NCBI GenBank assembly: GCA_025353015.1
Contig: JANXRM010000501.1
Location: forward strand, 1-32,909
Source: Hyphomicrobiales bacterium
Lineage (GTDB): Bacteria; Pseudomonadota; Alphaproteobacteria; Rhizobiales; Hyphomicrobiaceae
DNA: 32,909 nucleotides
Direction: 5' to 3'
The position numbers and the translations under genes are program-made. The notes beneath the pieces were generated by a model that worked only from the letters and a program-made list of their open reading frames with translations, searched no databases and was not told the origin of the DNA. How positions within the stretch are numbered: the stretch's first letter is position 1; every line of letters starts with the position of its first letter. Below, piece after piece: positions 13,424 through 23,780 of this stretch.

Positions 13424-13813
13424 CACCCATCCCTCAGTCGTTGCCAAATCACAGTCCGCAAGCTTCAAGCCTTTCCGCCGCCGTTGCAAGCGGCGGGTGG
13501 GGCGGGAGAGTGGCAGGCCGGCTGGGGGGACGGGGAGAACGAACCAGCATTGACATCCAGTCCGCCCCAGCACGATGAGTGGAGGCCAAGGTGAGCTGAC
13601 GCACACTCCGGGCCGCAACCGACTGTGAACGGACGACCGTTTGGACCACATCCTTTAGTCTGCAATCTGCTTTTTGACTTATTGCGGGCCTTCGTCGGTC
13701 GGCTAAGCCGGATCGCCATCTCCTCGCGGGACATCAGCGGCGCGTGATGTTATGAGCGCGGCAATCACCCATCGTCGTGCAACTCTTGCGTGCAACTCAT
13801 TGAGGAGGCTTCT
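13424..13813. other. 390-bp divergent intergenic region between CoA-transferase and extradiol dioxygenase
   Basis: No credible gene. It should carry the promoters of the minus-strand CoA-transferase/tct unit and of the plus-strand catabolic island. Visible structures are a 7-bp stem with 8-nt loop (CCGCCGC at 13475-13481, GCGGCGG at 13490-13496) and a 13-bp-period direct repeat just before the dioxygenase start. A TTGACT at 13674-13679 has no matching -10 at normal spacing. Confidence 0.5.
13776..13798 (+). repeat. Direct repeat CGTGCAACTC, period 13, just upstream of the dioxygenase gene
   Basis: CGTGCAACTC occurs at 13776-13785 and 13789-13798, separated by TTG. The pair ends 15 bp before the ATG at 13814. 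Direct half-sites a little over one helical turn apart can bind an activator, but the closeness to the start fits a repressor or a translation effect better. It may also be a plain duplication. Confidence 0.35.
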
Positions 13814-14779
13814 ATGTCGGCAGCGGGCGCTTTCGGCGACGTCGCGCATCTCGGCCATGTCGAGATGTTCACCAACAAGTTCGAGGAGAGCCTCGATTTC
13901 TTTACCAGGGTTCTCGGCTTGAAATTGTCTGGGCAGGACGCGAGCAGCGCCTATCTCCGCGCCTGGGAGGACTACGAGTTCCACTCGCTGAAATTGACGC
14001 GCAGCCACACTACTGGCGTGGGGCATGTCGCCTATCGCGTTTCGTCGCGAGAGGCCCTTGGACGGCGGATCAGTGCCATCGAAGCAAGCCGCTACAAGAC
14101 GATCGGCTGGGTCGAAGGCGATGCGGGTCATGGACGCGCCTACCGATTCGAGGATCCGTTCGGGCACGTGTTTGAACTCTACTGGGACACTCGGAAATAT
14201 GTCGCGGAAGCCGGGGACAAGCCGGCTCTAAAAAATATGGCGAGCCGCTTTCACGCGCAGGGTGCCTGTCCCCGCCGCATCGATCACTTGAACCTGTTGG
14301 CGGAGGATGTGGGCGAATTTCGAGACTTCATGGTGACATGCCTCGGCTCGCGCGTGACCGAACAGATCCGCCTCGACAACGGTCGCCTCGGTGGCTGCTG
14401 GTTCACGATCAACAACAAGTCTTACGACCTCGCCTGCACCGAAGAGCATGGCCGGGGCGGCGGCCGCCTGCATCACGTGACCTATGCGGCGGACCAGCGC
14501 GAGGATATTCTGCGCGCCGCCGACATCTTCCTCGAGAACGGCGTGCACATCGAGACGGGGCCGCACAAGCACGCCATCCAGGGAACCTTCTTCCTCTACG
14601 TTTGGGAACCTGCGGGCAATCGCATCGAAATCGCCAATGCTGGTGCGCGCCTGATCCTGGCACCGGACTGGGAGACGGTGACGTGGACGGAGAACGATCG
14701 CAAAAAGGGCCAAGCCTGGGGATTGAAGACCATCGAAACGTTCCACACGCATGGAACACCGCCAGTGACAAAGGTCTGA
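13814..14779 (+). CDS. Extradiol ring-cleavage dioxygenase, type I (catechol 2,3-dioxygenase family)
   Basis: Opens a catechol-type ring next to the hydroxyls using Fe(II) or Mn(II). The 321 residues form two VOC modules, about 10-130 and 155-285. Probable metal ligands are His158 (RIDHLNLL), a His of the pair at 220-221 (RLHHVTYA) and Glu272 (EPAGNRIEI). The closing motif LYVWEPAGNRIE is the extradiol dioxygenase signature, and the N-terminal module keeps the matching DPFGHVFELYW. The ATG at 13814 follows GAGGAGG. The natural substrate is unknown; catechol, homoprotocatechuate and biphenyl-type diols are all cleaved by relatives. It heads a plus-strand island with transport and protocatechuate genes. 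Confidence 0.88.
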   Translation: MSAAGAFGDVAHLGHVEMFTNKFEESLDFFTRVLGLKLSGQDASSAYLRAWEDYEFHSLKLTRSHTTGVGHVAYRVSSREALGRRISAIEASRYKTIGWVEGDAGHGRAYRFEDPFGHVFELYWDTRKYVAEAGDKPALKNMASRFHAQGACPRRIDHLNLLAEDVGEFRDFMVTCLGSRVTEQIRLDNGRLGGCWFTINNKSYDLACTEEHGRGGGRLHHVTYAADQREDILRAADIFLENGVHIETGPHKHAIQGTFFLYVWEPAGNRIEIANAGARLILAPDWETVTWTENDRKKGQAWGLKTIETFHTHGTPPVTKV

Positions 14780-14947: not shown

Positions 14948-16090
14948 ATGAAGCAGACGTTCGCACGAGCACTGAGCTTGGTTGTGGCCATCGCACTGGC
15001 CGGACCGGCCGTGGCGCAGGACACGATCAAGATCCCGAACATCATCGAGTTGTCGGGCGGTGGCGCAACCGTCGGAACCAACTGGAAGAACGGCTCTTCG
15101 ATGGCCGTTGAAGAGATCAACGCGGCCGGTGGTATCCTCGGCAAGAAGATCGAGCTTATGTTTGTCGACACTGCGACCGACCCGGGCAAGGCTCGCGCTG
15201 GAATCCAACGCGCCATCGACGACAAGCCGATCGCCATCTTCGGCCCGATCTACTCTGGGAGCGTCAGCGCGACGCTGCAGATGACCAACGAGGCTGGTAT
15301 CCCGCAGATCATCGGCGGCGAGGCCGGCAACCTGACCACGCAGGGCTCCAAGTATCTGTTCCGCACCTCTTTCGGCCAGAACGTTTCGATGCCGAAGATC
15401 GCCAACTACATCCGTGACGGCGTCAAGGCAAAGACTGTGTCGGTCATCTACGTCAACAATGACGTCGGCAAAGGCGGCCGCAATGCCATCACCAAAGAGT
15501 TCGAAAGCCGCGGCATCAAGCTTGGCGCCGATCTTTCGACCGAGGCCGGCCAAGCCGACTTCGCCGCCGACGTCGTCAAGCTCAAGGCTGCCAACGCCGA
15601 CGCCGTGTTCGTCTACCTTAACGAGGAAGAGAGCGCGCGCTTCGTGATCGAGGCGAAGAAGCAGGGCCTCGACAAGCCGCTGATCGGCGAGACCACGTTG
15701 CTCGGCCAGAAAGTGATCGACCTCGCCAAGGAAGCCGCAAACGGTGTCAAGGGTCACGTCGGCCTCACCGTCGACGCGCCGATCCCCGCCGTCGCCGAGT
15801 TCGCGAAGAAGTTCCAGGCCAAGTATAACTACGCCTCCGATCACAACGGCATCAAGGGTTACATCGCGCCCTACATGATAAAGGCGGCCGCGGAGAAGGC
15901 CGGCAAGCTTGACGCCAAGGCGATCGTGGAAGCGCTGCACGGTCTCACGATCTCACCCGACAAGACGCCGGGCATCCTGATCGAGGCGACCTGGGACGAG
16001 ACCGGTGAGATCGACCGCATCTCATTCCTGGCCGAGGTCAGGGGCGGCAAGCAGGTCATCACCGAGACCCTGCCGAAGCTGAAGAAGTAA
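14948..16090 (+). CDS. ABC transporter substrate-binding protein, branched-chain amino acid/aromatic acid type (LivK-like)
   Basis: Periplasmic receptor of a HAAT-type ABC importer. The 380 residues start with a clear signal peptide, MKQTFARALSLVVAIALAG, cut probably after AVA at residue 23. The mature type I binding fold shows NGSSMAVEEINAAGGILGKK, IFGPIYSGSVSATLQ and VIYVNNDVGKGGRNAI. The ATG at 14948 follows CAGGAGATC. Many alphaproteobacterial members next to aromatic genes bind aromatic or alicyclic acids rather than amino acids. The downstream pcaHG, shikimate dehydrogenase and dehydroshikimate dehydratase genes make such a ligand plausible here, but this is inference. Confidence 0.92.
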   Translation: MKQTFARALSLVVAIALAGPAVAQDTIKIPNIIELSGGGATVGTNWKNGSSMAVEEINAAGGILGKKIELMFVDTATDPGKARAGIQRAIDDKPIAIFGPIYSGSVSATLQMTNEAGIPQIIGGEAGNLTTQGSKYLFRTSFGQNVSMPKIANYIRDGVKAKTVSVIYVNNDVGKGGRNAITKEFESRGIKLGADLSTEAGQADFAADVVKLKAANADAVFVYLNEEESARFVIEAKKQGLDKPLIGETTLLGQKVIDLAKEAANGVKGHVGLTVDAPIPAVAEFAKKFQAKYNYASDHNGIKGYIAPYMIKAAAEKAGKLDAKAIVEALHGLTISPDKTPGILIEATWDETGEIDRISFLAEVRGGKQVITETLPKLKK

Positions 16091-16152: not shown

Positions 16153-17045
16153 ATGTCCGACTTTCTTCAACTGGTGATCGCCGGTCTAGCAACTGGTGCG
16201 ATCTACGCCCTGACCGCTGTCGGCTTCACGCTGCTCTGGCAGGCATCGAAGACGATCAACTTCGCCCAGGGCGAGTTCGTCATGCTGCCGGCGTTCTTCG
16301 CGCTCGTTGCGATGAACTGGCTCGGCGTGCAGTTCTGGCTCGCGGCCTTGATCGCGATCGCCGTGTCGATGGCGTTGCTCGGTGTCGCCTTCAAGCTCGC
16401 GATCGTCGACCCATTGATCAACCATGGGCCGATGCCGCTCGTCATCTCGACGATTGCCGTCGCCATCCTGCTGAAGGACGGCGTCAAAGAGTTCTATTCG
16501 GCCGAGGCGCAGCCTTTCCCATCGCTGCTGCCCGATGCGCTCGTCCAGATCGCCGGCGTCAAGATCTCGATCGCCCAGATCGGCGTGTTCGTGGTCGCCA
16601 TGGCGACAATCCTTGCGCTGCAGTATTTTTTGTCGTCGACACGCACCGGCCGCCAGATGCAGGCAACCGCGCAGAACCCGACGGTTGCGCGCATCCTCGG
16701 TGTGCCGGTCGAGCGCATGATCCTCTACACCTTCCTCATCAATGCCGGGCTGGCGGCGGTCGCCTCGCTGCTGATTTCACCGATCTACTTCGCCAAGTTC
16801 TCGAGCGGTGAGCCGCTCGGCCTTGCCGCCTTCGTCGCCGCCATCGTCGGCGGTTTCAACCAGGTGCGTGGCGCCATCGCCGGCGGCCTGATCGTCGGCG
16901 GCGTCGACAATCTCGCGGCCGGCTATCTCGACCGCATCGGCATCGCCTCGTCGTACCGGCAAGCCAGCCCCCGCTGCTGCTCGTGCTCGTCATCCTGTTC
17001 CGTCCGCAAGGCCTGCTTGGGCGTAAAGAGGAGCGCTCGGTATGA
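16153..17045 (+). CDS. ABC transporter permease LivH-like, frameshifted near its 3' end
   Basis: First membrane subunit of the HAAT importer. The opening MSDFLQLVIAGLATGAIYAL and the core GFTLLWQASKTINFAQGEF are typical of LivH. The frame is normal for about 271 codons to YLDRIGIASSYRQA. At a run of five C (16968-16972) it leaves the family sequence and reads on to 17688 with no similarity. In the frame obtained by adding one C, the expected last helix and tail appear (LVILFRPQGLLGRKEERSV), ending at a TGA at 17043-17045 that overlaps the livM ATG as ATGA. The gene is therefore broken by a one-base loss, or the assembly has a homopolymer error. The restored length of 297 residues is normal. 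The ATG at 16153 follows GGGAG. Confidence 0.85.
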
Positions 17046-18106
17046 CCTGGTCCCGCCTGCAGGTGCCGGTCCTCGTGGTGACGGTGCTGCTTTTGATCCT
17101 CTTGCCCGTCGACATGACCGGGATCGAGATACCGTGGCCTGGCCTCAGATCCTACGGCTCGCTCAACCTGACGCGGTGGCTCGTCATCGCCGTCGCAGCG
17201 ATGGGGGTCAACTTGATCGTCGGCTACGCCGGCCAGGAAACCTTAGCTCAGGCTGCATTCTTCGGTATCGGCGCGTACCTGACCGCGATCGCGACCAAGG
17301 CCGGCATACCGTTCGGCCTGGCATTCCTGGGGTCAGCGGGTCTAACCTTTGTCATAGGCATTGTGCTGGGTTTCCCGGCGCTGCGCGTACAGAAGCACTA
17401 TCTGGCGTTCGTGACGCTGGCGTTCACGATCTTCGTCTGGCTTGTCTTCCGCAACGAGGAGTGGCTGACCGGCGGCGTTTCCGGCATCCAGGGCATCACG
17501 CGGCCGTCGCTGCTGGGCTTGAGCCTGCGGCCACCGCTCTATTTCTATTGGTTCACGCTCGCGATCACCGCAGTGCTTATGTGCCTGATGTGGTGGCTGA
17601 TCCGCAGCCCTTGGGGCCGCGCGTTCACGGCCTTACGCGAGAACGCGATCCGCGCCGAGAGCCTCGGCATCGACGTTCGCGGCTATAAGCTGCTCGCCTT
17701 CGCAATCGGCTCGGCCTACGGCGGCATGGCGGGAGCACTCTACGCGCCGCTGGTCGGCTTCATCGATCCGTCGCCCTTCGCGCTCGCGCCGTCGCTGCTG
17801 TTCATGCTGATGGTCGTGGTCGGCGGCTCCGGCACGCTGATGGGCCCCGTCATCGGCGCCGGCATCGCCGTGCTGCTGCCCGAGTGGCTGGAAGTTGCGA
17901 GCAGCAAGATCACGAGCCCGGTCCTGCAGCACCTGTTCAGCTATCTGCTGGTCTATGCCCTCATCGTCATGGTCATGATGGCGTTCTGTCCGACCGGCAT
18001 CGTCGGGCTCGTGCAACGGATCTTCACGCCGAAGCGGCGCCCGCATGCCGACGACAAGGGGCCAACGATCGGCACGGCAACGATACCCGCGCGAGGCAAG
18101 CCATGA
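17042..18106 (+). CDS. ABC transporter permease LivM-like
   Basis: Second membrane subunit of the importer, 354 residues with about 9-10 hydrophobic helices. The motif NLIVGYAGQETLAQAAFFGIGAY is the LivM hallmark (usually GQxSLGHAAF), followed by FPALRVQKHYLAFVTLAF and a cytoplasmic coupling stretch with RSPWGRAFTALRENAIRAES. The start ATG at 17042 overlaps the ancestral livH stop, and its own stop overlaps the next ATG (18103) as ATGA, so all are translationally coupled. Its C-terminus is hydrophilic (KRRPHADDKG). Nothing suggests damage here, although the frameshift upstream could reduce its translation. Confidence 0.92.
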   Translation: MTWSRLQVPVLVVTVLLLILLPVDMTGIEIPWPGLRSYGSLNLTRWLVIAVAAMGVNLIVGYAGQETLAQAAFFGIGAYLTAIATKAGIPFGLAFLGSAGLTFVIGIVLGFPALRVQKHYLAFVTLAFTIFVWLVFRNEEWLTGGVSGIQGITRPSLLGLSLRPPLYFYWFTLAITAVLMCLMWWLIRSPWGRAFTALRENAIRAESLGIDVRGYKLLAFAIGSAYGGMAGALYAPLVGFIDPSPFALAPSLLFMLMVVVGGSGTLMGPVIGAGIAVLLPEWLEVASSKITSPVLQHLFSYLLVYALIVMVMMAFCPTGIVGLVQRIFTPKRRPHADDKGPTIGTATIPARGKP

Positions 18107-19602
18107 CGACCGTGCTCGAGGTCCGCGATGTCGCCAAGTCGTTCGGCGGTGTACATGCCGTGCGCGGCGTCACGTTCGATGTCCAGCAGGGCGAGATCCT
18201 TGGACTGATCGGACCCAATGGTTCAGGCAAAACGACGCTTTTCAATTGCATCCTCGGCCAACTCACGCCAAGCCGCGGTGATGTGCGCGTCGGCGGACGA
18301 AGCGTCACGGGGTTGCGTCCGTCAGAGCTCAACCGGCTCGGCATCGGTCGCACATTCCAGCTGCTGCAAGTGTTCCCTGAGCTGACGGTGCGCGAAAATC
18401 TCATCCTCGCCGGCCAGGAGCACAAAGGCTCGCGCCTCTCGCGGCTGTTTGGACCGCGTGACGCCGAACTGACGGGCGACGCTGAACGCATGATCGCATT
18501 TTTCCGCCTTGAGCATCTCGCCGACGAAAAGGCCGGCGGACTTTCCTATGGTCAGCAGAAGTTGCTCGACTGTGCGATGGCATTCATGGCGGGGCCGCGC
18601 CTCGTGCTCCTCGATGAGCCGGCGGGCGGGGTGAACTTGACTATGCTGGCGAACCTGAAAGAGCGCCTGCAGGCGATCAACAAGGAGACCGGCGCCACCT
18701 TCGTCGTGATCGAGCACAACATGGAATTCGTGATGTCGCTATGCACGCGCATTCTGGTGCTGGCCGAAGGCGAGATCATCGCCGAAGGGTCGCCCGACAC
18801 CGTGCGCCGGAACCCGAAGGTCATCGAGCCTATCTCGGACATTGAGGCCGCCATGACGCAATCACAAGCCGGCAGCGCGCCGATACTCACCCTAGATAAC
18901 GTCGTCGCTGGCTATGGCATGATGACGATCTTGAACGGCATCACGGCTGCCATTCGCCGCGCCAAGATTACGACGGTGATCGGTCCCAATGGCGCCGGCA
19001 AGTCGACCATGTTCAAGACTGTGTTCGGGCTACTCGGCGTGCGGGCCGGCACGATCGCGTTCGACGGCCGCACCGTCACCAACTGGTCGCCGCGCCAAAT
19101 GCTCGACGCCGGCGTTTCGTTTGTGCCGCAGGGCCGCAACATTTTTTCCGAACTCAGCGTCCGCCATAATCTGGAACTTGGCGGCGTCGCACTCTCCGAC
19201 CAGTCGGGCTTGACCGGTCGCATCGAAACGATGATGCAGCGCTTCCCGATACTCGCCGAAAAGTCCAATGCTCAGGCGGGGACGCTTTCCGGCGGTCAGC
19301 AGAAACTGCTCGAAGTCGCGCGCGGTTTGCTTCTCGAGCCGAAGCTGATGCTGATCGACGAGCCTTCGATCGGCCTCTCACCGATTATGGTCCAGGAGGT
19401 GTTTTCGATCCTCAAGGGGCTACGCGACAGTGGCGTATCGATCCTGCTGATCGAGCAGAACGCCATGCAGGCATTGCAGATGTCGGACTACGGCCTCGTC
19501 CTCGAACAGGGCCAAACTCGGATCGAGGATACCGCCGCCCATATCCTGGCCGACCCGCGGATTGCCCAGCTGTTCCTTGGCGGCGGCCTCGCGCCCGCGT
19601 AA
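18103..19602 (+). CDS. Fused double ATP-binding subunit of HAAT-type ABC transporter (LivG-LivF fusion)
   Basis: Energises the importer; a single 499-residue protein contains both ATPases that are normally separate. Domain 1 (about 1-248, LivG-like): Walker A GPNGSGKT at 37-44, signature LSYGQQK from 147, Walker B LVLLDEP at 167-173 and His205. Domain 2 (about 259-499, LivF-like): Walker A GPNGAGKS at 294-301, VPQGRNIFSELSV, signature LSGGQQK from 395, Walker B LMLIDEP at 415-421. The linker is very short (IEPISDIEAAMTQSQAGSAP). Met251 (ATG at 18853) is where a separate livF would start, so internal initiation could still release LivF. The start ATG at 18103 overlaps the livM stop. Confidence 0.93.
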   Translation: MTTVLEVRDVAKSFGGVHAVRGVTFDVQQGEILGLIGPNGSGKTTLFNCILGQLTPSRGDVRVGGRSVTGLRPSELNRLGIGRTFQLLQVFPELTVRENLILAGQEHKGSRLSRLFGPRDAELTGDAERMIAFFRLEHLADEKAGGLSYGQQKLLDCAMAFMAGPRLVLLDEPAGGVNLTMLANLKERLQAINKETGATFVVIEHNMEFVMSLCTRILVLAEGEIIAEGSPDTVRRNPKVIEPISDIEAAMTQSQAGSAPILTLDNVVAGYGMMTILNGITAAIRRAKITTVIGPNGAGKSTMFKTVFGLLGVRAGTIAFDGRTVTNWSPRQMLDAGVSFVPQGRNIFSELSVRHNLELGGVALSDQSGLTGRIETMMQRFPILAEKSNAQAGTLSGGQQKLLEVARGLLLEPKLMLIDEPSIGLSPIMVQEVFSILKGLRDSGVSILLIEQNAMQALQMSDYGLVLEQGQTRIEDTAAHILADPRIAQLFLGGGLAPA

Positions 19603-19651: not shown

Positions 19652-20356
19652 ATGTCTGAGATCATCAAGCCACGCGACTGGTCGAGCCAGCCGTCCTACA
19701 TCGACCCGGCCTACCGCTCGACGGCCTTGCGCGGGCCGACGAAGCCGCTCATCCCGCTGCGCCAATCACTCTCGGAGCTGACCGGCCCGGTCTACGGCCA
19801 CGATTGCCTCGGCCCGCTCGACGCGGACTTGACCAAGAACGGCCGCAAGACTGCCGATCCCCTCGGGGAGCGGATTGTCGTCACCGGCCGCGTACTCGAC
19901 GAGGATGGCCGGCCGCTGCCGAACACCCTGCTCGAGATCTGGCAGGCCAACGCCGCCGGCCGCTTTGTTCACGTAGTCGACCAGCATGAGGCGCCCCTCG
20001 ACCCGAACTTCTTCGGCGGCGGGCGTTGTGTGACCGACGCCGCGGGCCGCTACCGTTTCACGACGATAAAACCCGGCGCCTATCCGTGGGGCAATCACCA
20101 TAACGCCTGGCGGCCAAACCACATCCATTTCTCACTGTTCGGGCCATCGTTCGTCACCCGCCTCGTCACGCAGATGTACTTCCCCGGCGATCCCTTGCTC
20201 GAGCTCGATCCGATCTACAAGAGTTCCGCTGTCGGCGCACGCGAGCGGATGGTGGCCAGATTCTCGATCGAGGTGACGGAGCCTGGTTTCGCGCTCGGCT
20301 ACGAATGGGACATCGTGCTGCGCGGGCGCAACGAAACCCCGATGGGGAGCCACTGA
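19652..20356 (+). CDS. pcaH: Protocatechuate 3,4-dioxygenase, beta subunit
   Basis: Iron-bearing subunit of the intradiol dioxygenase that converts protocatechuate to beta-carboxy-cis,cis-muconate. The 234 residues have the family body, with GARERMV and ALGYEWDIVLRGRN near the end. Of the four Fe(III) ligands of the Pseudomonas putida enzyme, three are seen: Tyr144 (GAYPWGNH; Tyr447), His157 and His159 (WRPNHIHFS; His460 and His462). Arg154 is also kept. The fourth, axial Tyr408, aligns with Phe105 in AAGRFVHVVDQH (codon TTT). This is a striking substitution in an otherwise intact enzyme. The ATG at 19652 follows GGAGGTGCGACAAGGAA. pcaG overlaps its stop as TGATG. Confidence 0.93.
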   Translation: MSEIIKPRDWSSQPSYIDPAYRSTALRGPTKPLIPLRQSLSELTGPVYGHDCLGPLDADLTKNGRKTADPLGERIVVTGRVLDEDGRPLPNTLLEIWQANAAGRFVHVVDQHEAPLDPNFFGGGRCVTDAAGRYRFTTIKPGAYPWGNHHNAWRPNHIHFSLFGPSFVTRLVTQMYFPGDPLLELDPIYKSSAVGARERMVARFSIEVTEPGFALGYEWDIVLRGRNETPMGSH

Positions 20357-20952
20357 TGGCGAAGCTCACGCAAACACCGTCGCAGACGCTCGGGCCTTAT
20401 TTCGCTTACGGCTTGACGCCCGAGCAATACAGCTACGGCTTCCTCACGAGTATCGCCGGCGCGGCGGTCGCCGCTACGGACACGACGGGCACGCGCATCC
20501 GGATCGAGGGCCGTGTTCTCGACGGCGCCGGGGTGCCCATCAACGATGCGATGATCGAAATCTGGCAGGCCGACGACCAGGGACGATACGCGCATCCGGC
20601 GGATCCGCGGCCGTTGAACGCCGGATTTCGTGGCTTTGGACGTTGCGGTACCGGGACCGACGCCCAGTGCCGTTTCTACTTCGATAGCATCAAACCGGCT
20701 TCGGTCGACGGTGTGCAGGCGCCACACATCAACGTCGTTGTCATGATGCGCGGGATGTTGCTCCACGCCTTCACGCGGATCTATTTTTCCGACGAAGCTG
20801 CAGCCAATGCACATGACCCTGTACTGGCGACAATGCCCGAGGTGCGGCGCGGGACCCTGATAGGGCAGCTCGACGAAAGCCGGCCGGGCAAGGTTTATCG
20901 CTTCGACATTCACATGCAGGGCGCCGACGAGACGGTGTTCTTTGATGCGTAA
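20356..20952 (+). CDS. pcaG: Protocatechuate 3,4-dioxygenase, alpha subunit
   Basis: Non-iron partner of PcaH that completes the active site of the (alpha-beta Fe) oligomer. The 198 residues begin MAKLTQTPSQTLGPYFAYGL, a hallmark alpha-subunit N-terminus. The shared core reads VLDGAGVPINDAMIEIWQA, then GRYAHPADPR, with PHINVVVMMRGML at the position of the beta-subunit metal site. The alpha subunit keeps Tyr where PcaH has Phe105. The start ATG shares bases with the pcaH stop (TGATG), giving translational coupling and equal subunit dose. Confidence 0.93.
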   Translation: MAKLTQTPSQTLGPYFAYGLTPEQYSYGFLTSIAGAAVAATDTTGTRIRIEGRVLDGAGVPINDAMIEIWQADDQGRYAHPADPRPLNAGFRGFGRCGTGTDAQCRFYFDSIKPASVDGVQAPHINVVVMMRGMLLHAFTRIYFSDEAAANAHDPVLATMPEVRRGTLIGQLDESRPGKVYRFDIHMQGADETVFFDA

Positions 20953-21034: not shown

Positions 21035-21865
21035 ATGATCAGCGGCACGACCAAACTCATCGCGCACATCGGCTTCCCAACCGAAACATTCAAATCGCCG
21101 ATGATTTACAATCCTTACTTCGAGAAGCACGGCATCGACGCCGTGGTCATCCCGATGGGCTGCAAGCCGGAGCACTACCCGGAATTCCTGCGGCTCGTCT
21201 TCAAGTTGTCAAATTCGCTCGGCGCGCTCGTCACCATGCCGCACAAGGTCACAACGGTGGCGTTGCTGGACGACGCCACGGCAACGGTAAAAGTTGCTGG
21301 CTCTTGCAACGCTGTGCGCCTGGGTCCCAGCGGGAAGCTCGAAGGCGAGATGTTCGACGGCGAAGGCTTTGTTCAGGGTGCGCTGCGCAAAGGACGAAAA
21401 CTCCAAGGTGCGCGTGCTCTCGTGGTCGGCTGCGGCGGCGTCGGCTCTGCTATCGCCGCATCGCTTGCCAAAGCCGGGGTTGGTGAGCTCGCCCTCTATG
21501 ACGCGTCGACGCCGATGATGCAGGCCCTGGCCGGCCGGCTGCAAACGCACTACCCGGCACTGACGGTCGCGGTCGGTTCGAACGACCCGACCGGGTTCGA
21601 CGTCGTCGTCAATGCGACACCGCTCGGCATGCACGATGGCGACCCGTTGCCTTTCGATGTGTCACGCCTCGAACAGCGGGCGTTTGTCGGCGAAGTGGTC
21701 TTGAAGCAGGAGATCACGCCGCTCCTGGCAGCGGTACGGGCACGCGGCTGCGAGTTTCAAGTCGGGACCGATATGTTGTTCGAACAGATTCCATCATACC
21801 TTGAGTACTTCGGTTTGCGGTCGACAACCGCGGACGAACTGCGGGCCGTTGCCAGGCTCGAGTAA
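21035..21865 (+). CDS. Shikimate dehydrogenase family protein, probably catabolic (shikimate/quinate oxidation)
   Basis: Oxidises shikimate (or quinate) at C3. The 276-residue AroE fold is complete: substrate loop FKSPMIYN, catalytic Lys71 in VTMPHK, Asn92 in GSCNAVR, Asp108 in FDGEGF, and the dinucleotide loop GCGGVG at 132-137. Asp156 at the end of the second strand (LALYDAS) takes the place of the Asn-Arg-Thr that binds the NADP phosphate in biosynthetic AroE, which points to NAD. Phe19 replaces the first of two Ser that hold the substrate carboxylate (Ser14 in E. coli); Ser21 is kept. Position between pcaG and the dehydroshikimate dehydratase supports a degradative role. The ATG at 21035 has only a weak AAGGG upstream. 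Confidence 0.88.
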   Translation: MISGTTKLIAHIGFPTETFKSPMIYNPYFEKHGIDAVVIPMGCKPEHYPEFLRLVFKLSNSLGALVTMPHKVTTVALLDDATATVKVAGSCNAVRLGPSGKLEGEMFDGEGFVQGALRKGRKLQGARALVVGCGGVGSAIAASLAKAGVGELALYDASTPMMQALAGRLQTHYPALTVAVGSNDPTGFDVVVNATPLGMHDGDPLPFDVSRLEQRAFVGEVVLKQEITPLLAAVRARGCEFQVGTDMLFEQIPSYLEYFGLRSTTADELRAVARLE

Positions 21866-21887: not shown

Positions 21888-23780
21888 ATGCAAACCGCCA
21901 TCGCTACCGTCTGCCTCAGCGGCATGCTGAACGAAAAACTCGAGGCCATTGCGGCGGCCGGCTTCAAAGGTGTCGAACTGTTCGAAAACGACCTCCTTTC
22001 GTTCAGTGGCACGCCGAGCGATGTCCGTCGAATTGCCGATGACCTCGGGTTGAAGATCGTCACATTCCAGCCGTTTCGCGATTTCGAGGGCATGCCGCCG
22101 GAGCGCCGGGAGCGTGTGTTCCAGCGCGCCGAGCGCAAACTCGATGTGATGGCCGAACTCGGCTGCGATCTGCTCATGATCTGCTCGAACGTGTCACCTG
22201 AAAGCCTCGGTGGCATCGATCGCGCGGCAGCCGACCTCAATGAGCTCGGACGACGCGCCGCGGCGCGCGGCTTGCGCGTCGGCTTCGAAGCCTTGGCGTG
22301 GGGGCGCCACATCAACGACTACCGGGATGCCTGGGAGGCGGTGCGCCGAGCAGACCATCCCGCGATCGGGCTCGTACTCGACAGCTTCCACACTCTCGTG
22401 CGCAAGACCGATCTCGGTGCGATGCGCAGCATCCCGCGTGACCGCATTTTCCTGGTCCAGATGGCCGATGCACCGCTGCTCGATATGGACTTTCTCAATT
22501 GGAGCCGGAATTACCGGAATTTTCCTGGACAGGGCGATCTCGACATCGATGCGTTCATGGATGCGCTGCAGGCGACCGGCTATGGCGGGCTGCTCTCGCT
22601 TGAAATATTTAACGACCAGTTCCGTGCCGGTTCGGCGCGCAATGTGGCCGTGGATGGCCACCGCTCTCTGATCTACATGCTCGACCGTTTACAGTCGCGC
22701 TGTGGCCAACAAGCGGTCCTGCCACAACCGTTGCCTCCACGCTCGAAATGCCAGGGAACAGAATTCATAGAGTTCGCCATTGACGAGACGTCGCAACAGG
22801 CGTTCGCGGCGCTGCTTTCAGGCCTTGGATTTCGCAAGGCCGGCCAGCACATTTCCAAGTCGGTAACGCGTTGGACGCAAGGCCACATCAATATCGTCAC
22901 CAACTCGGAAAAAGATGGCTTTGCTCACTCGTTCAACATCATGCACGGCACCGGCGTCTGTGCGATTGGCCTCAGAGTCGAAAACGCGACGGCGACGCTG
23001 GATCGCGCGCAACGTCTGCTCGACGCTCCTTTCCGTCAGGCGGTCGGGCCGGGTGAACTCGAAATTCCGGCTGTTCGCGGACTTGGCGGCAGCCTCGTCT
23101 ACTTCACCGATACCGCAAGCCAGCTAGGCCAGGTCTGGGACATCGAGTTCTCTCCCCTCGACGCGGACCAGTCGCACAACGATGCAGGCCTCGGCTTTGT
23201 CGACCATATCTCGCAGTCGATGCAGTATGAGGAAATGCTGACATGGCAACTTTTCTACGGTGCCTTGCTTGACCTCTCCAAAACGCCGGAGCAGGACGTG
23301 CTCGATCCCGGCGGCATCGTCAAGAGCCAGGTGCTGCAGACGATGAAAGGTGAGTTGCGCCTCGTGCTCAACGCTTCGCAGTCAAGCCGCACACTATCAT
23401 CGCGTTTCCTGTCGGAAGCGTTCGGCTCGGGCGTGCAGCATATCGCGTTTGCAACGGGCGACATCTTCGCGACGACAACGGCTCTCAAGGCAAATGGCAT
23501 AACCTTGCTCGCCATCCCCGAGAATTACTATGACGACCTCGAGGCTAAGACCGACCTTTCTGGCGATGCTATCGACCGCCTGAAGGCGAACAACATCCTT
23601 TATGAGCGCGACGGCACCGGCGAATACTTGCAAGTCTACACACGCACGTTTGACGAACGCTTCTTCTTCGAGATTGTCGAGCGGCGGGGCGGCTATAAGG
23701 GCTTCGGGGCAAGTAACGCTCAGGTCCGCCTATCTGCCCAGGCCCGTGATGCGCGGCGCCCGGACATCCCCAGGCGGTAA
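21888..23780 (+). CDS. quiC: 3-dehydroshikimate dehydratase, two-domain type (TIM barrel + HPPD-like)
   Basis: Dehydrates 3-dehydroshikimate to protocatechuate, feeding PcaHG. Of 630 residues, about 1-275 are a xylose-isomerase-like TIM barrel with metal ligands Glu134 (VGFEALAWG), Asp165 (LVLDSFHTL), Gln191 (FLVQMAD) and Glu239 (LSLEIFND). Residues about 288-605 form a 4-hydroxyphenylpyruvate-dioxygenase-like VOC half with ligands His440 (FVDHISQSM), His518 (VQHIAFATGD) and Glu595 (RFFFEIVERRGG). This architecture is that of the bacterial QuiC1 group. The ATG at 21888 follows GAAGGAAG, 22 bp after the shikimate dehydrogenase. The last dozen residues (ARDARRPDIPRR) look unlike the family end and overlap an antisense coding-like stretch. 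Confidence 0.9.
   Translation: MQTAIATVCLSGMLNEKLEAIAAAGFKGVELFENDLLSFSGTPSDVRRIADDLGLKIVTFQPFRDFEGMPPERRERVFQRAERKLDVMAELGCDLLMICSNVSPESLGGIDRAAADLNELGRRAAARGLRVGFEALAWGRHINDYRDAWEAVRRADHPAIGLVLDSFHTLVRKTDLGAMRSIPRDRIFLVQMADAPLLDMDFLNWSRNYRNFPGQGDLDIDAFMDALQATGYGGLLSLEIFNDQFRAGSARNVAVDGHRSLIYMLDRLQSRCGQQAVLPQPLPPRSKCQGTEFIEFAIDETSQQAFAALLSGLGFRKAGQHISKSVTRWTQGHINIVTNSEKDGFAHSFNIMHGTGVCAIGLRVENATATLDRAQRLLDAPFRQAVGPGELEIPAVRGLGGSLVYFTDTASQLGQVWDIEFSPLDADQSHNDAGLGFVDHISQSMQYEEMLTWQLFYGALLDLSKTPEQDVLDPGGIVKSQVLQTMKGELRLVLNASQSSRTLSSRFLSEAFGSGVQHIAFATGDIFATTTALKANGITLLAIPENYYDDLEAKTDLSGDAIDRLKANNILYERDGTGEYLQVYTRTFDERFFFEIVERRGGYKGFGASNAQVRLSAQARDARRPDIPRR

Follow-up and report, generated by a model that had tools for sequence, protein, structure and literature searches.

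Among the closest described systems are the protocatechuate 3,4-dioxygenases PcaHG of Pseudomonas putida (2pcd) and Acinetobacter (1eo2), which are composed of full-length beta and alpha chains. In the iron site of the beta chain, Tyr408 is the equatorial tyrosine and Tyr447 the axial one; His460 and His462 are the other family ligands and Arg457 is a second-sphere residue. For mutants of Tyr408, Valley et al. reportedly found activities below 0.1%. Engineered P. putida PcaH chains with His, Cys or Glu at residue 408 are present in the PDB (1yko, 1ykk and 1ykm, respectively), as is a chain with His at 447 (3lkt). For catechol 1,2-dioxygenase, PMC8231159 assigns Tyr 167, the first tyrosine of the pair, as the equatorial and Tyr 201, the second, as the axial ligand, and describes that the axial Tyr leaves when substrate binds; similarly, the axial tyrosine of protocatechuate 3,4-dioxygenase dissociates upon substrate binding according to PMC3543765. 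As the equatorial ligand, Tyr408 is therefore expected to remain on the iron throughout the catalytic cycle. A natural intradiol enzyme with one iron ligand predicted to be replaced is the catechol 1,2-dioxygenase from Stenotrophomonas maltophilia KB2, which is described as highly active in PMC3656225.

The window studied here is the whole stretch of 32,909 nucleotides that was analysed, positions 1 to 32,909 of contig JANXRM010000501.1 from a Hyphomicrobiales bacterium (GCA_025353015.1). On its forward strand, it contains a pcaH gene (19652..20356) for a protocatechuate 3,4-dioxygenase beta subunit of 234 amino acids with a Phe at the Tyr408 position. The deduced protein obtained 338.1 bits with TIGR02422 (curated cut-off 296.4), a full-length family match, and both PF00775 and PF12391 scored above their cut-offs. 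Directly beside it lies the expected partner gene, an intact pcaG for the alpha subunit (20356..20952, forward strand, start codon picked by eye), with 229.6 bits for TIGR02423 compared to a cut-off of 126.25. Like the enzymes of P. putida and Acinetobacter, the window therefore has full-length beta and alpha chains. By descent, the window PcaH belongs to TIGR02422, and in terms of function it is a putative enzyme. The evidence given below indicates that its Phe is very probably an isolated, private one-base lesion in an otherwise ordinary PcaH, due either to an error in the draft assembly or to a recent real mutation.

When the window PcaH was aligned with the P. putida beta chain 2pcd_M using HMMER, query residues 13-194 were covered free of gaps, and F105 fell on chain residue 108, whereas Y144, R154, H157 and H159 fell on residues 147, 157, 160 and 162. 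Chain residues 108, 147, 157, 160 and 162 are those that we take to be Tyr408, Tyr447, Arg457, His460 and His462 in the 400-series names. Tyr447, Arg457, His460 and His462 are thus kept in the window protein as in 2pcd and 1eo2, whereas the equatorial iron ligand Tyr408, which the family requires, is replaced by Phe105, encoded by the codon TTT (19964..19966, forward strand). A preliminary description of this DNA had placed Phe105 at the Tyr408 column by counting residues back from Tyr447 and had listed Tyr447, both His and Arg457 as retained, and both statements are borne out by the alignment to 2pcd_M. However, it had called the lost tyrosine the axial one, and this label is wrong by the parallel with catechol 1,2-dioxygenase drawn from PMC8231159, 408 being equatorial and 447 axial. 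The residue altered in the window is the same as in 1yko, 1ykk and 1ykm, but those chains are laboratory-made and carry other residues, Phe being absent at this position among the PDB chains compared. An alignment artefact in which another Tyr takes the place of F105 was ruled out by the gap-free alignment across residues 13-194, and an alternative Tyr in the vicinity by the unchanged spacing of 39 residues to Tyr447. Also, the residues just after F105 (V106, H107, V108 and V109) contain no substitute Tyr. The pocket of protocatechuate 3,4-dioxygenase is presumably lined by Tyr324, Trp400, Trp449, Arg457 and Gln477, and the residues matched to these are all kept in the window PcaH as Y21, W97, W146, R154 and Q174. 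An AlphaFold2 model built from an 11-sequence alignment had a mean pLDDT of 70.7, with residues 101-109 below 50, so that the site is too poorly modelled to judge.

Relatives with Phe at this column were then sought among 257 loci from the same order, class and phylum. In the first 128 loci, 99 distinct beta chains were encountered, 98 of them with Tyr (60 TAC, 38 TAT) and the window alone with Phe (TTT). In the full set, 192 of 193 distinct beta chains had Tyr (TAC or TAT), and the only one with Phe was again that of the window; no further PcaH with Phe at this column, for which the preliminary description had proposed to look, was present among the 193. These chains are the best matches from overlapping sets of 60, 397, 398 and 385 genomes rather than a random draw, and they include a second chain from the same genome, on contig C95, 11 chains from contigs of the motif scan described below, and 80 of the additional matches that were listed without a locus. 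After identical rows had been merged, 195 remained, from which two alpha-like rows were set aside (the second chain of L019, score 340, with Tyr, and the first chain of L051, score 329, with Phe) to give the 193 beta rows; in one of these (L020), the residue corresponding to Tyr447 is unread. The codon TAT, which is one base away from TTT, occurs at this place in 68 of the 195 rows.

A public collection comprising 84,980 species genomes, which leaves out contigs of less than 3,000 bases and possibly also the window's own genome, was scanned for a compact motif with a Phe codon and gave 22 matches, no PcaH among them. With Tyr in place of Phe, the motif picks up 131 of 193 Tyr rows (one row being alpha-like), or roughly two in three PcaH genes, so that about one third would escape the scan. 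Half of the Phe matches (11 of 22) are PcaG alpha chains (L035, L038, L039, L040, L042, L043, L045, L047, L052, L054 and L055), and ten have no real homology to PcaH (L034, L036, L037, L041, L044, L046, L048, L049, L050 and L053), the match in L041 extending over 38 residues only. The last one, in L051, is alpha-like; it has lost the Arg457, His460 and His462 places and kept a Tyr at the 447 place. L020 and L025 likewise encode alpha chains with Phe at the 408 place. PcaG alpha subunits of Marinobacterium, Marinobacter, Zobellella and others therefore resemble the window PcaH in having Phe at the matching place but, unlike it, they are devoid of the other iron ligands and are not the catalytic iron subunits. 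With all 22 matches inspected and none of them a PcaH, we rejected Phe as an established PcaH variant, within the two thirds or so of PcaH genes that the scan covers. No report of Tyr408Phe was recognised in the literature searched, a search that most subscription journals lay outside of.

Apart from residue 105, the gene is ordinary. At 36 columns that are invariant in the 98 other beta chains, the window protein departs at 105 only, and this is also its sole deviation among the 55 columns with at least 95% conservation in the wider set; if columns conserved to at least 90% are considered, it also differs at 219, where it has a Trp in common with 15 other rows. The remainder of PcaH is thus intact over its full length, as had been supposed from the sequence initially. 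Ratios of dN/dS between the window gene and relatives were 0.11-0.32 (13 of 14 pairs), against 0.08-0.27 (13 of 15 pairs) when five relatives and the C95 copy were compared with one another, synonymous change being saturated in the pairs that gave no ratio (one and two, respectively). A tree built from 45 chains places the window PcaH with the chain from the relative G012 (support 99/88), on an end branch of 0.14, which is shorter than the median of 0.18. Given ordinary dN/dS values, a short branch and a single conserved column lost, a pseudogene formed by long-term decay was rejected. Ordinary selection has acted on the window pcaH up to a very recent time, and because the remaining gene shows ordinary purifying selection, any drift to loss must be very recent. 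The slow evolution of this copy, together with its place beside genes for making its substrate, makes it resemble a gene in use and counts against a lesion.

The gene order around pcaHG is a catechol 2,3-dioxygenase-like gene, a Liv-type transporter, pcaHG, an AroE-like gene and a QuiC-like gene. The extradiol, catechol 2,3-dioxygenase-like gene (13790-14779) obtained 303.4 bits with TIGR03211, below the cut-off of 320.2, and lies just upstream of the Liv transporter, which begins with a gene for a livK-like substrate-binding protein (14948..16090, forward strand). Downstream of pcaG follow, on the forward strand, an AroE-like shikimate/quinate dehydrogenase gene (21035..21865), below the cut-offs of NCBIfam models, and a gene for a QuiC-like 3-dehydroshikimate dehydratase with a C-terminal HPPD-like half (21888..23780), at 713.9 bits with a cut-off of 1200. 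The names AroE-like, QuiC-like, Liv-type and catechol 2,3-dioxygenase-like rest on NCBIfam matches below cut-off, the ABC ATPases excepted. This order suggests an operon for the uptake of quinate or shikimate, its conversion to protocatechuate and ring cleavage. In the relative G012, livKHMGF is located near fmt as in the window, and pcaHG and the quiC-like gene are found on other contigs.

Upstream of pcaH, two genes of the transporter have broken frames. The open reading frame of livH (16153..17688, forward strand) changes frame at about 16963-16972, in the last tenth of the gene and within a short run of C, and then extends across livM in the wrong frame; the end of LivH as known from two relatives is encoded in the window solely in a different frame. 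The damage to livH that had been noticed earlier is therefore real in the sequence as given. A second break, in livG, is new relative to that earlier observation, which cites livH only. Here, livG and livF are fused as one open reading frame of 502 codons (18103..19602, forward strand), the frame shifting at about 18826-18830; livG ends with AYLGH or AYLGG and a stop in three relatives, and in the window AYLGH and a stop were found out of frame when the DNA was read by eye. livK, livM, livF, pcaG and the aroE-like and quiC-like genes read through. A frame-break scan based on codon usage was too coarse to pick up either the livH or the livG break; it gave frame changes at gene overlaps (18058/18059, 20344/20345 and 26790/26791). 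This coarse scan signalled one more change of frame, at 14752/14753, close to where the catechol-dioxygenase-like gene ends.

Counting pcaH, livH and livG, three single-base oddities lie in some 3 kb, a pattern compatible with poor assembly of this stretch and also with an operon starting to decay. That the organism has Tyr, and that the base in question is a consensus or assembly error, is a reading that we place only just short of even. The genome is a draft of 530 contigs and 91.8% complete, the TTT codon is a single base from the TAT used by many relatives, and Phe105 is the only conserved column affected in pcaH, all of which agree with an error, as does the clustering of the three oddities. 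However, both frames break shortly before the 3' end of the gene, a bias that would not be expected of random errors and that slightly favours real, tolerated changes, two cases being too few to carry much weight.

A real, recent change that inactivated one of two pcaHG copies, possibly within an operon starting to decay, is a substantial possibility that we hold tentatively. The second pcaHG, on contig C95 (6299-7505, L056), encodes a PcaH with Tyr and all other ligands intact, 70% identical to the window PcaH. It is on a long end branch (0.49 in the 45-chain tree) and may therefore have a role that differs from that of the window copy. Also in favour of inactivation, the frame breaks in livH and livG adjoin pcaH, and a search at E 0.001 in three genomes of the same genus (G001-G003, two of them 85-88% complete) gave no PcaH match, which suggests that pcaHG is patchy in the genus and its function dispensable there. 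On the other hand, with no further conserved column of pcaH lost and a short branch, such decay would have to be very young, and the genes of the operon other than livH and livG still read through. Regarding the rest of the pathway, pcaB scored above its cut-off in this genome and five PcaC-family matches were all below theirs, whereas no match for LigB was found in the 92% complete draft (the control was positive in 4 of 14 genomes). Meta-cleavage by LigAB was thus rejected as a replacement route within the limits of this draft. The C95 pcaHG is flanked by purK and a bactofilin-like gene, with TRAP-transporter-like genes in the vicinity, as named by eye.

Whether the base was misread or has mutated, the sequence as given has a private single-base change whose translation is Tyr408Phe, which affects the equatorial iron ligand. 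The Phe105 protein as read should fold and might still hold Fe(III) by way of Tyr447, His460 and His462. Lacking the equatorial tyrosinate, protocatechuate would probably chelate the iron improperly, so that ring cleavage would be nearly abolished, and the window PcaH as read should be nearly inactive. Cleavage of protocatechuate would then be taken over by the C95 pcaHG.

The weakest reading, that a PcaHG without equatorial tyrosinate and with altered rate, colour or substrate has been selected, is very improbable, since Phe is common to no other member examined and, with Y21, W97, W146, R154 and Q174 kept, no known pocket residue has moved along with F105, even though pcaH is otherwise conserved, evolves slowly and adjoins genes that make its substrate. 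The KB2 enzyme, with one ligand predicted to be replaced and high activity according to PMC3656225, speaks for such a reading, but it has Gln in place of His and not Phe in place of Tyr, and its substrate is catechol. In this improbable case, the iron site would work with water and three ligands from the protein, and the genome would have a copy with Tyr in addition. Among the three readings put forward in the preliminary description, drift to loss of function and a one-base error both fit the data, whereas changed chemistry or substrate lacks positive support, with the pocket kept and the Phe shared by no relative examined. If the lesion is an error, it is a warning that a draft assembly can mimic a change in an active site, whereas a real lesion with a dead enzyme would mean that one of two pcaHG copies was lost cleanly in a single step. 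For chemists, it would be of interest only with a working Phe105 enzyme, as a natural intradiol iron site without equatorial tyrosinate and a direct test of the need for this ligand.

Finally, the alpha-like intradiol domain of L051 (JACQAI010000136.1) was found in a frame of 899 codons around position 2540, where it adjoins a normal PcaH.
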